Of a stretch of 28,781 nucleotides of DNA, positions 3,282 through 26,944 are shown one piece after another. Source of the DNA: a virus. The number at the start of each line of letters is the position of its first letter. The stretch's first letter is position 1. The notes under the pieces were generated by a model. It did no database searches, was not told the DNA's origin, and saw only the letters and a list, made by a program, of their open reading frames with translations. The stretch covers positions 1 to 28,781 of IMG/VR virus record IMGVR_UViG_3300006929_000076. The stretch is one strand, 5' to 3'. The position numbers and the translations under genes were made by a program.

Positions 3282-3716
3282 ATGCCAGAGTTGGAAACAG
3301 AGGTTGAACTTCTTAAAAAAGAATTGCATGACCAAAGAAAAATTCATGATCGTTTGGATGTTGCAATTGAGAAGCTGACTGATGTTTCCAACTCTATCAA
3401 CCGTATGCTCGCTGTGCATGAGGAAAAGATTGCAAGACAAGAAGAAGCAATCTTTGAAGCAGAACAAAAAATAGAAGTCCGTAGGAGCGAACTGCTTGTT
3501 AAGATAGATGAGCTCCATTCTAGAGTCACCACAAATACCAAAGAAATTATGACAGCAGCTGCAAATCAGCATATGGAACAAAACAAAGAAATACAAAAAA
3601 TTCGTGATGATATACATGCCCGTGTGGGTGTGTTAGAAAAGTGGAGATATGTTCTCATTGGAGGATCGATTGTCATAGGATTCATGTTACATAAATTTAT
3701 TGATTTTAGTCCTTGA
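3282..3716 (+). CDS. Coiled-coil protein with C-terminal membrane anchor
   Basis: 144 residues. Almost the whole protein (about 1-115) is heptad-rich coiled coil, followed by a basic motif and one hydrophobic helix (about 120-138), then a short tail. This tail-anchored layout resembles XhlA-type haemolysin/holin-associated proteins of phages, though I cannot claim homology. It lies between the small membrane protein and the primase, and its stop is at the -35 region of the primase promoter. Confidence 0.6.
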   Translation: MPELETEVELLKKELHDQRKIHDRLDVAIEKLTDVSNSINRMLAVHEEKIARQEEAIFEAEQKIEVRRSELLVKIDELHSRVTTNTKEIMTAAANQHMEQNKEIQKIRDDIHARVGVLEKWRYVLIGGSIVIGFMLHKFIDFSP

Positions 3717-15406: not shown

Positions 15407-15760
15407 ATGAGCGGTATGCATTTGATGCCCGTGTACTATTCTACCACTAGTACACGCAGGCTTAAAAAGAAAAAGAAGACTGCTTCTGTCCTTGAGGCAG
15501 AACGTCAACACGAAAAGTTTCTCAAGAAGATGGGAATCAAACGGAGTGTAGCGCAGTCTGGTAGCGCATCTGCTTTGGGAGCAGAGGGTCAGGGGTTCAA
15601 ATCCTCTCACTCCGACCAGTTGCCTCTTTCTAACGATATACCAGTAGGTGTAACACCAAAGAGAAAAATACACAAACACAATTTCACAATTGCACCAGCA
15701 TACAACAAAGGTGCATATCAAGTTATTTCAAAGAAAGATATAAAGGATATCGGAAGATGA
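15407..15760 (+). CDS. Hypothetical basic protein with a tRNA-Pro embedded in its frame
   Basis: 117 residues (ATG 15407; ATGs at 15416 and 15425 are alternatives, the last giving MPVYYSTTST). The N-terminal half is strongly basic (RRLKKKKKT) with a helix ending KKMGIK; the end contains APAYNKGAYQVISKKDIKDIGR. I think both ends belong to one small protein type seen in marine phages, but I cannot verify it. Codons 46-71 coincide exactly with the tRNA-Pro gene (frame starts at its first base), producing RSVAQSGSASALGAEGQGF. Either the tRNA inserted without breaking the gene, or the middle is not translated as protein. The 3' end overlaps rpsU by 4 nt. Confidence 0.5.
   Translation: MSGMHLMPVYYSTTSTRRLKKKKKTASVLEAERQHEKFLKKMGIKRSVAQSGSASALGAEGQGFKSSHSDQLPLSNDIPVGVTPKRKIHKHNFTIAPAYNKGAYQVISKKDIKDIGR
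15542..15618 (+). tRNA. tRNA-Pro (UGG)
   Basis: 77 nt with encoded CCA. Acceptor stem CGGAGTG/CACTCCG, anticodon stem CTGCT/AGCAG around TTTGGGA with anticodon TGG, T-loop TTCAAAT. It closely resembles tRNA-Pro of Alphaproteobacteria, which supports host assignment or origin. It lies in frame within the ORF 15407-15760. Confidence 0.95.
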
Positions 15761-24892: not shown

Positions 24893-25611
24893 TGTTTAAT
24901 CATGTAGGGATAGAGTTGCAGCCTATAACAGCAACAACTACAGATGGTGTGCGTCTATATGAAACACCAGAAGGTAATAAGTATCCATCAATCACAACTG
25001 TTCTATCAACTCGTAACAAGAAGGGTTTGATGGAGTGGCGTAATAGAGTCGGTAACGAAGTTGCAAACTATGTTGCTGGTAAGGCCGCGGCCCGTGGAAC
25101 TAAGGTTCACCATATGTGTGAGGATTATCTTAACAATATGGAAAGCAACTTTCCTGATAAGTGGGAAAAACACAAGAAGAATTTTCTACCGTTCTGTCTT
25201 TTTAAGCAGTTAAAGGAAAAGGTATTATGCAATATTGACAACATCTATGCACAAGAAGCCGGTCTATATAGTGATAAATATAAAGTAGCGGGCCGTGTTG
25301 ATTGTGTTGCGGAATACAATGGTGTATTGTCTATAATAGACTTCAAGACATCAACTAAGGAACGTAAAGATGATTGGAATGACAGTTATTACATTCAAGG
25401 CTCTGCATATGCAGAAATGTTCAAGGAGAGAACAGACATTGAAATTGATCAAGTAGTAATTTTAGTAGTCACAGAAGATGGTACTGTGCAAGAGTTTGTA
25501 AAACAAAAACACGATTATCTAAATGCGTTAACGGAATCCGTTGAAGTATGGAGAAACCAAAATGAAACACCTAATATCAATAATGGCGGTGTTTCTGTTA
25601 ATGGGATGTAA
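24892..25611 (+). CDS. PD-(D/E)XK exonuclease, Cas4/RecB-like
   Basis: 239 residues. YPSITTVLS and AARGTKVHHMCEDYL give the conserved N-terminal region with a catalytic His, then GRVDCVAEYNGVLSIIDFKTS carries D137 and D150-x-K152, and SYYIQGSAYAEMF the C-terminal motif. This matches phage exonucleases related to MGME1/Cas4, which degrade ssDNA ends in recombination or host DNA breakdown. It overlaps the following lipoprotein gene by 50 nt. Confidence 0.82.
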   Translation: MFNHVGIELQPITATTTDGVRLYETPEGNKYPSITTVLSTRNKKGLMEWRNRVGNEVANYVAGKAAARGTKVHHMCEDYLNNMESNFPDKWEKHKKNFLPFCLFKQLKEKVLCNIDNIYAQEAGLYSDKYKVAGRVDCVAEYNGVLSIIDFKTSTKERKDDWNDSYYIQGSAYAEMFKERTDIEIDQVVILVVTEDGTVQEFVKQKHDYLNALTESVEVWRNQNETPNINNGGVSVNGM

Positions 25612-26005
25612 TGTAACCAACAATATTCCCAAACAAACAGCGCCTGATAACAAAGTAAATGCTGTACACCTCATTAAAGATGAGGATAAGGAACCAATTA
25701 GTCCTAAAACACCTGATAAATTTTCTTTTGTCACGGTTCCAAAAGCTATAAGTTGTGCTCCGAATAACAAAATTCTAAAAAAACTTATGGAAGTGGAAGA
25801 AAAACCAATTGCATTATGGAAAGATGCTTTTCAAGGACATCAAGTTATGGTCTTTACAAATCAAAAAACAGGCACAACAACTATTCTAGAATATCCACCC
25901 TTGTTTGAAGGTGACTACGCATGTTTACTATCTATTGGTGTTGAAACTATATTATTACATAAGCCAGAGACACAAGGTATTAAAATAAAGTACTTGACAA
26001 ATTAG
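25562..26005 (+). CDS. Lipoprotein, unknown
   Basis: 147 residues from ATG 25562, which begins a clear lipoprotein signal MKHLISIMAVFLLMGC with lipobox LLMGC (Cys16); an in-frame codon at 25541 lies further up. GGAGAAA precedes it. A hydrophilic linker is followed by a beta-rich domain with two more cysteines. I do not recognise the family; it should be anchored in the periplasm or outer membrane. Its 5' end lies within the exonuclease gene (50 nt), another case of a signal peptide encoded inside an upstream gene. The tmRNA promoter begins inside its 3' end. Confidence 0.65.
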   Translation: MKHLISIMAVFLLMGCNVTNNIPKQTAPDNKVNAVHLIKDEDKEPISPKTPDKFSFVTVPKAISCAPNNKILKKLMEVEEKPIALWKDAFQGHQVMVFTNQKTGTTTILEYPPLFEGDYACLLSIGVETILLHKPETQGIKIKYLTN

Positions 26006-26024
26006 CTATAATGTGGTATAAATA
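25994..26024 (+). promoter_or_regulatory. tmRNA promoter combining sigma70-like and late elements
   Basis: TTGACA at 25994-25999, exactly 17 nt, then TATAAATA at 26017-26024. The -10 region is at once a TATAAA-type box and a perfect T4-type late promoter, so the gene may be transcribed both early and late. Confidence 0.65.
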
Positions 26025-26030
26025 TAATAC

Positions 26031-26092
26031 AATTCGATGATGTGGATTGAAAGTCGGACAGGACGGGGGTGCGATACCCCCCGCCTCCACCA
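26031..26092 (+). ncRNA. ssrA: Permuted tmRNA, acceptor piece
   Basis: Contains the 3' tRNA-like half: T-stem GGGGG (26065-26069), T-loop TGCGATA, CCCCC (26077-26081), then acceptor strand CGCCTCC (26082-26088), discriminator A and encoded CCA (26090-26092). CGCCTCC pairs over 7 bp with GGGGGCG at 26252-26258, including the G3-U70 wobble that alanyl-tRNA synthetase reads. AGTCGG (26052-26057) pairs with TCGACT (26267-26272) as helix 2. Acceptor lying before the coding part is the circularly permuted order of alphaproteobacteria. The 5' end is estimated from the promoter. Confidence 0.9.
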
Positions 26093-26133
26093 AAAGGAGA
26101 TTAGTGTGGAACAGATATTGTTAGGGGGTTGTG

Positions 26134-26250
26134 ATGAAGAACCCCTTAGTACGAAAGGTAAGTAAGTGGATGTTTAGAGCATATATCGTTTGGAGCATAT
26201 GTGCAGATATAACCTTACTTGCCGGGATAATATACCTAGTCTTTTTTTGA
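26134..26250 (+). CDS. 38-residue membrane peptide inside the tmRNA intervening segment
   Basis: ATG 26134 with AGGGGG 5 nt upstream; stop at 26248-26250, one base before the tmRNA coding piece. Basic start (MKNPLVRKVSKWMF) then a hydrophobic helix (IVWSICADITLLAGIIYLVFF). It lies entirely between the two tmRNA pieces, in sequence normally removed by processing. A 19-codon GTG ORF (26106-26165, AGGAGA upstream) overlaps it in another frame. It looks like a real small membrane protein, possibly holin-like, with no assigned function. Confidence 0.5.
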   Translation: MKNPLVRKVSKWMFRAYIVWSICADITLLAGIIYLVFF

Positions 26251-26251
26251 T

Positions 26252-26448
26252 GGGGGCGAAATAGGATCGACTGACGGTGAATAGAAAAACGGAGAGTTGT
26301 GGATTGGACGCCTCATAGTCCACTATAGTAAATGCAAACGATAACTTTGCATCTCAAGATTTCGCACTAGCTGCGTAATCGGATAGGGTTTCGGGGGTTT
26401 CCTAGTAACAGAATAACCCCCACTTTAAGGATTGCCACGTGGCGATTC
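26252..26448 (+). ncRNA. ssrA: Permuted tmRNA, coding piece
   Basis: Starts with GGGGGCG (acceptor 5' strand) and a D-loop-like AAATAGGA, then helix 2 and a pseudoknot region (GTGGA/TCCAC around 26299-26325). The tag reading frame follows at 26334-26378. Downstream are hairpins 26393-26399/26415-26421 and 26429-26436/26441-26448. The true 3' end is not visible; I stop at the last hairpin, since RBS and start of the next gene follow at 26464-26480. Confidence 0.85.
26334..26378 (+). other. tmRNA proteolysis tag reading frame
   Basis: Resume codon GCA at 26334, preceded by TAGTAAAT, encodes ANDNFASQDFALAA and TAA. The ANDN start is typical of alphaproteobacterial tags; ALAA is the ClpXP/ClpAP degron end. 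Ribosomes stalled on broken mRNAs would add this tag. Confidence 0.92.
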
Positions 26449-26479
26449 AAACTTTGTCATGATAAGGAGATATTAAATT

Positions 26480-26734: not shown

Positions 26735-26837
26735 AGAGCACTTCATACTAACGCACTAAGGCGAGTATGATTTTATCCCAATGAACGAATTGTAACACAT
26801 ATCGTATCATATGGGTTAACATAAAAGGAGATAGTGT

Positions 26838-26912
26838 GTGAGTTTAGAAGCCTTCGTAAGAAAATCATTTATTCCTTCTGGCTTGAGGAACACACGAAGG
26901 GTGATGCCTTAA
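26838..26912 (+). CDS. 24-residue peptide ORF
   Basis: GTG at 26838 with AAAGGAGAT 6-7 nt upstream (26824-26832), stop at 26912. It encodes a basic peptide (GTG start, then SLEAFVRKSFIPSGLRNTRR). The strong binding site is the main support. The rest of the 26735-26962 gap holds the hairpin at 26922 and no other gene that I see. Confidence 0.35.
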   Translation: MSLEAFVRKSFIPSGLRNTRRVMP

Positions 26913-26921
26913 TACATCCGT

Positions 26922-26944
26922 GGGGGGTCAACGGTTAACCCCCC
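26922..26944 (+). terminator. Hairpin ahead of gp33-like gene
   Basis: GGGGGGT (26922-26928) pairs with ACCCCCC (26938-26944), extended by AA/TT around a CGG loop, followed by AACTTTT. The short T-run makes it a weak terminator or a leader structure. Confidence 0.5.

Follow-up and report, generated by a model that had tools for sequence, protein, structure and literature searches.

Permuted tmRNA gene and its genomic setting

The window, by which we mean the whole 28,781-nt stretch of the virus record IMGVR_UViG_3300006929_000076, comes from a marine phage and carries a phage-encoded, circularly permuted tmRNA of the alpha type at about 25990-26448, in which the tRNA-like 3' half with its CCA comes first, followed by a spacer and then by the tag-bearing half (Table 1). 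A permuted tmRNA was called by ARAGORN at 25999-26469 with the tag ANDNFASQDFALAA, the frame of which is intact and has LAA at its end, and Rfam gave matches to RF04321 (tmRNA_permuted) at 26031-26378 with 109.5 bits, the gathering cut-off being 47, and to RF01849 (alpha_tmRNA) at 25990-26424 with 104.6 bits, the cut-off being 50. The third pair of the acceptor stem is G.U, as in alanine tRNA, and the T-loop is intact according to both ARAGORN and Rfam. With Rfam, no match to any intron family, group I introns included, was obtained in the window. We infer that the tmRNA is processed to two pieces and, by analogy, that the spacer is missing from the mature RNA. The permuted, tag-bearing phage tmRNA claimed in the preliminary description is thus borne out by ARAGORN, by both Rfam models and by covariation, and the stem, the G.U pair, the 159-nt spacer, the tag and the coordinates given there were all found to be correct on re-reading the sequence. 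The two checks by which that claim could fail were also made: the covariance search gave matches above the cut-off for both models, and the two halves were found to covary among 31 relatives.

Table 1. Positions of the tmRNA pieces, spacer reading frames and associated elements in the window.
Feature	Position	Strand	Basis or remark
Promoter-like boxes TTGACA (25994-25999) and TATAAATA (26018-26025), 18 nt apart	25994-26025	+	Read in sequence
tmRNA 3' piece (helix-2 strand, T-arm, acceptor strand, CCA)	26031-26092	+	Sequence, ARAGORN, Rfam, covariation; the exact mature 5' end may differ from 26031
Acceptor 3' strand CGCCTCC	26082-26088	+	Read in sequence
Encoded CCA	26090-26092	+	Read in sequence
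Intervening segment (spacer), 159 nt, carrying ORF-A and ORF-B	26093-26251	+	Read in sequence
Spacer closing helix, 5' strand, covering AAGGAG	26093-26103	+	Pairs with 26237-26247 (ORF-B 3' end)
Ribosome-binding site AAGGAG, right after CCA and six nt before the ORF-A start	26094-26099	+	
ORF-A, leader VEQILLGGCDEEPLSTKGK (19 aa), GTG start, TAA stop	26106-26165	+	Overlaps the ORF-B start in a different frame
Predicted hairpin AGGGGGTT...ATG...AACCCCTT around the ORF-B start codon	26123-26149	+	Fold prediction
ORF-B, 38-aa putative membrane protein MKNPLVRKVSKWMFRAYIVWSICADITLLAGIIYLVFF, ATG to TGA	26134-26250	+	
tmRNA 5' piece (acceptor strand, helix-2 strand, tag frame, 3' part)	26252-26448	+	ARAGORN, Rfam, covariation; 26448 is the figure of the preliminary description, the RF01849 match stopping at 26424 and ARAGORN at 26469
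Acceptor 5' strand GGGGGCG	26252-26258	+	Read in sequence
Tag reading frame ANDNFASQDFALAA and stop	26334-26378	+	ARAGORN

The tmRNA is surrounded by genes for a PhoH-like protein, an exonuclease, a late promoter regulator and a helicase loader, with ribonucleotide reductase and primase genes located farther away. The nearest cultured phages found were the Melnitz phages (Kyanoviridae), to which the identity was 77% for the large subunit of ribonucleotide reductase and 45.5% for the helicase loader, and the gene order in Melnitz is similar (tmRNA, late-transcription gene, helicase loader). No SmpB gene was found in the 28.8-kb record, which is possibly a fragment. The nearest tag seen was ANDNVASQDFALAA in an alphaproteobacterial MAG (L171). 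The suggestion in the preliminary description that the permuted form points to a host with the same processing enzymes is a weak one, as Melnitz has an alpha-type tmRNA and yet infects a Methylophilales host.

Promoter-like boxes of the form TTGACN-N17/18-TATAAATA were present in 77 of the 93 relatives having enough upstream sequence. Those of the window went unlisted in a simple promoter scan because it accepts only a second hexamer that has T as its last base. The sequence TATAAATA is also the late-promoter motif of the T4 type, and it could double as a -10 box and a late motif, so that the tmRNA would be made both early and late.

Some other features of the record were also observed. A putative lipoprotein (MKHLISIMAVFLLMGC...) is encoded at 25559-26005, directly upstream of the tmRNA, and had no PHROG at E below 0.03. 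Downstream, a second small ORF, MCEFRSLRKKIIYSFWLEEHTKGDALIHPWGVNG, is located at 26834-26938 with its 3' end inside a GGGGGTcaacggttAACCCCC hairpin, and L271 has a similar stretch (KGDALIHPWGV and the hairpin). A 117-codon ORF at 15407-15760 shares its strand and part of its length with the tRNA-Pro gene (15542-15618), and one of the two is probably not a gene.

Covariation of the tmRNA halves across the spacer

The covariation between the two halves was evaluated by aligning 31 relatives of equal spacer length and counting base pairs. Standard pairs were present in 99.3% of the alignment cells, the pairs of the acceptor, T-arm and helix 2 being kept in 98.7-100%. Seven pairs in total were changed on both sides, namely four of five in helix 2, the strands of which flank the spacer on each side, two of five in the T-arm and one of seven in the acceptor, in which the G.U pair was invariant. 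The observed pairing or covariation score was reached by none of 500 shuffles, and only 48-66% of the cells were paired in slid versions of the alignment. Thus, the covariation across the spacer indicates that the tmRNA is under selection, and that its two halves evolve together and are selected as RNA.

Two overlapping reading frames in the spacer

The spacer codes for two overlapping ORFs, a point which had escaped the preliminary description. Upstream of ORF-A, the AAGGAG site was invariant or nearly so among 50 distinct spacers. In the same 50 spacers, the ORF-A start codon was GTG in 33, ATG in 14 and TTG in 3, its last two letters being invariant, and the ORF-A frame was open in all 50, compared with 3 and none for the other two frames. 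The pN/pS upstream of the overlap was about 0.9, indicating that the peptide itself is unconserved. The simplest reading would be that the act of translating ORF-A matters, rather than the peptide.

For ORF-B, a search with its relatives indicated that they are encoded in 264 viral contigs, of which 80 were kept. The TGA stop of ORF-B ends 1 nt short of the acceptor stem, and the acceptor strand was found 1 nt past the stop in 76 of the 80 kept loci. The pN/pS was 0.136 in the ORF-B frame, compared with 1.14 and 3.8 for the two alternative frames (38 distinct sequences); it was 0.22 in the set of 159-nt spacers, which takes in more distant members, and 0.24 in the same set when the part within the closing helix was left out. 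In family 1, to which ORF-B belongs, 86 of the 94 members have a spacer length that is a multiple of three. A chance ORF is ruled out by the pN/pS together with the spread over 264 contigs, and the substitution pattern indicates that ORF-B is under protein-level selection. In its C-terminal region the hydropathy reaches 2.15 over a stretch of 19 residues. We regard ORF-B, with low confidence, as probably a small protein of the inner membrane that is related to host takeover or lysis, the function having been guessed from this single hydrophobic C-terminal segment. It had no match in PHROGs, and no relatives were found in cultured phages by tblastn.

Two secondary structures are associated with these ORFs. 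The closing helix of the spacer was paired in 99.1% of the cells, with one pair changed on both sides. It was rejected as a phage-specific switch, since paired ends are also present in bacterial spacers and the helix is, hence, unspecific. In the hairpin predicted around the ORF-B start codon, one arm contains AGGGGG, which resembles a ribosome-binding site, and the three core pairs were paired in 97.8% and nearly invariant, so that there is little support from covariation. The spacer was also considered as a terminator or an intron and rejected as both, having no terminator-like site and no intron family match.

Mobility of the spacer genes and other gene families

The ORF-A/ORF-B cassette was also found outside the tmRNA, just upstream of it, in L309, L310, L311 and L318. 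In L250 and L271 an extra cistron precedes ORF-B, and in L307 a 72-codon ORF precedes the whole cassette. The tmRNA pieces of the sibling L008 share 87.5% and 89% identity with those of the window, and its spacer is 80 nt long with paired ends and no ORF.

Other phages appear, from their sequences, to have other small genes in the same slot. Family 2 (MDEVLLWQFRQKCVEYICINNYSIYHARLIMMGAK), with a pN/pS of 0.237 (nine sequences), and family 3, a VKGH...DGFEEAY protein, were each found in tmRNA spacers and also as genes without an adjoining tmRNA. One member of family 4 (...PKYLSG) is located in the spacer of the cultured phage Melnitz (MZ577097.1), namely the ORF MFKWLSKTRLVVITRDYFRERNRKADAKIPKYLSGTRSVYD... 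at L002:14867-15050, which is unannotated, is led by TTGGAG, includes the peptide stretch MFKWLSKTRLVV... and continues into the 5' piece of the tmRNA to a stop 42 nt inside it. Its relatives were found in L017 and L043, and perhaps L097. Other contigs have single longer spacer ORFs of up to 120 codons. The spacer proteins had no confident match in PHROGs, and tblastn with families 1-3 gave none of note in cultured phages.

Two individual spacers may be mentioned here. At L386:2001-2219, the frame of a family-2 spacer ORF stays open across the whole 5' piece, continues into the tag and ends in ANDESYALAA; this is a single case of reading through into the tag, and chance is a possible explanation. 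The spacer of L119 contains, 5' of the acceptor at reverse-strand position 3299, a stretch that looks tRNA-like by eye (GCACGTGA...GGTTCGAATCC...TCACGTGC), and it was rejected as a tRNA, being called by neither ARAGORN nor Rfam.

Frequency of permuted tmRNAs and spacer ORFs in phages

The preliminary description regarded a phage with a permuted tmRNA as unusual, which does not hold. The two-piece tmRNA of Melnitz has been described together with a count of 53 such tmRNAs among isolated phages, 50 being of marine or aquatic origin (PMC9004378, 2022), and one exact 20-mer from the acceptor region was present in more than 120 stretches of viral contigs in our search. In addition, 79 phage tmRNA sequences have been given in the study in which RF04321 was built (PMC11915505, 2025). 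Permuted tmRNAs of phages are, therefore, known and not rare. ARAGORN also called permuted tmRNAs that are unannotated in the records of cultured phages (L579, L580, L581, L582, L585, L586 and L587; the phages are DSS3P8, RcXuper, RcSimone-Hastad, MD18, Cp1R7A-A1, HTVC008M and vB_RpoS-V10). In Rhodobacter phage RcRudolph, the annotated hypothetical protein RCRUDOLPH_61 (L584:703-1038) overlaps a tmRNA called by ARAGORN at 715-1129, and the protein is possibly a miscall.

The generality of spacer ORFs was evaluated in a sample that was blind to the spacer, consisting of contigs found by the acceptor 20-mer, and an ORF was counted when it had at least 25 codons and was led by a ribosome-binding site. 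Such ORFs were present in 27 of 106 viral spacers, a count that includes members of the same family and, hence, events that are not all independent, whereas dinucleotide shuffles gave 3.2 on average and at most 8; 19 of the viral spacer ORFs begin within 25 nt of CCA, compared with a shuffle mean of 0.7. Three quarters of the phage spacers in this sample were without such an ORF. The same 20-mer yielded 104 bacterial spacers, none of which had a ribosome-site-led ORF, and the median spacer length was 34 nt for bacteria and 86 nt for viruses. The spans listed for a sample of 240 genomes of one bacterial class were mostly short, and reading five of the longer ones revealed no convincing spacer ORF.

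In the open-licence literature, from which subscription papers could differ, we found no description of a permuted tmRNA with protein genes in its spacer; for spacers, PMC11915505 notes a tRNA gene as well as a repeat, and ORFs go unmentioned there. The protein genes inside the tmRNA spacer thus appear to be the new part.

Proposed mechanism and alternative explanations

We consider it likely that the locus is a functional-looking permuted alpha-type phage tmRNA, the spacer of which doubles as a small operon. As judged from sequence, the two halves are selected across the spacer, and the spacer has a translated-looking leader and a conserved 38-aa putative membrane protein. It is established that the precursor of a two-piece tmRNA is cut by tRNA-processing enzymes and loses its spacer (also PMC11915505). 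In the proposed mechanism, a single transcript from the upstream promoter would serve as pre-tmRNA and mRNA at once. Ribosomes would enter at AAGGAG beside CCA, translate ORF-A, open the hairpin and start ORF-B, although the coupling of ORF-B to ORF-A translation is an interpretation. Host RNase P would cut before G26252 and a 3' nuclease would trim to CCA, and the freed spacer would retain the ORF-B stop codon, followed by a single nt. The two tmRNA pieces would then reassemble and, together with the SmpB of the host, rescue ribosomes during infection. Because the entry site AAGGAG lies within the closing helix, competition would be expected between translation of the spacer genes and the folding and cleavage of the tmRNA. 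A switch between translation and processing is put forward as a hypothesis only, because bacterial spacers have the closing helix as well.

The spacer may instead be a tolerant landing place, in which two RNA genes stand in an operon and small genes have lodged between them with no regulatory link. We give this somewhat less than an even chance, and it amounts to the small-operon explanation above with the competition step taken away. Small phage genes likewise lodge between phage tRNA genes, and the several unrelated families, the cistron combinations in L250, L271 and L307, the movement in and out of the tmRNA, and the ORF-free spacer of the sibling L008 all agree with it. However, the exact 1-nt distance from stop to acceptor in family 1 and the ribosome-binding sites right after CCA in unrelated families suggest genes fitted to the slot, regulation being unproven in either case.

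Beyond the small operon considered likely for the window, it is conceivable, though we regard it as unlikely, that phage permuted tmRNAs in general are dual-function precursors that are either translated or cut, ribosome availability setting the balance, and that in some phages the cut spacer message becomes a nonstop substrate of their own tmRNA. A distinctly improbable version, confined to families 2 and 3 and Melnitz, would be feedback on the uncut precursor, in which the RNase P cut yields a nonstop spacer mRNA and its product is tagged by the tmRNA. The stops of families 2, 3 and 4, which lie 13 nt or 42 nt past the cut site, and the frame of L386 that continues into the tag itself are consistent with such feedback; however, ORF-B of the window stops ahead of the cut, the tail ATG GGG GCG AAA TAG comes with the conserved acceptor and may be passive, and some members read beyond TAG.

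The phage tmRNA could also be a decoy that binds SmpB and so blocks the tmRNA of the host, a role that has been proposed in the case of mycobacteriophage DS6A (PMC4131195, PMC11915505), and the lack of an SmpB gene in the record, possibly a fragment, agrees with such a role. We consider this very improbable here, since DS6A has little beyond the tRNA-like domain, whereas the tag frame of the window is intact and its relatives keep ANDN...LAA tags. Finally, that the spacer is conserved only as an RNA structure guiding processing, with the ORFs as by-products, is hardly credible despite the well-conserved closing helix, given the pN/pS of 0.14-0.24, which extends outside that helix, the same protein encoded outside the tmRNA, spacer lengths varying in steps of three, and the paired spacer ends of L008 without any ORF.

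If the spacer operon is as proposed, a translation-rescue RNA and an mRNA share one precursor, which forces a competition between translation and RNA processing, and the permuted form gains a use unavailable to the unpermuted form, namely room for genes. The interior of a tmRNA escapes gene calling because tmRNA genes are annotated as non-coding. These spacer genes would represent a class of unannotated small phage proteins inside tmRNA genes, one of which is in the cultured phage Melnitz and is testable.

Comparison with known systems

The locus shares with the two-piece alpha-type tmRNA (RF01849 / RF04321) the gene order, the tRNA-like domain, the G.U pair, the CCA and a tag of the ANDN...LAA kind, and differs in that its spacer is 159 nt long with two ORFs, whereas the spacers of that type are short and non-coding (bacterial median, 34 nt). 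The spacer genes can be regarded as a variant of the permuted tmRNA that has good statistical support and for which we infer processing, expression and function. The ssrA of Melnitz (PMC9004378) is likewise a phage permuted alpha-type tmRNA in the same neighborhood, and its 142-nt spacer has an unannotated ORF, which was not reported in that paper; however, the spacer proteins of the two differ, and Melnitz has a glutamine riboswitch 3' of the tmRNA, whereas the window is without one according to Rfam. The permuted tmRNA of a nominally archaeal MAG (PMC11915505) likewise has another gene in its spacer, which is a single RNA gene (tRNA-Ala) in that case, in contrast to the several protein families in many phages here. 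The tmRNA with a group I intron carrying a homing-endonuclease ORF (PMC11915505) is similar in that a protein gene within the tmRNA gene is removed from the mature RNA, although it resides there in a self-splicing T-loop intron and here in a permutation spacer that has no intron match.
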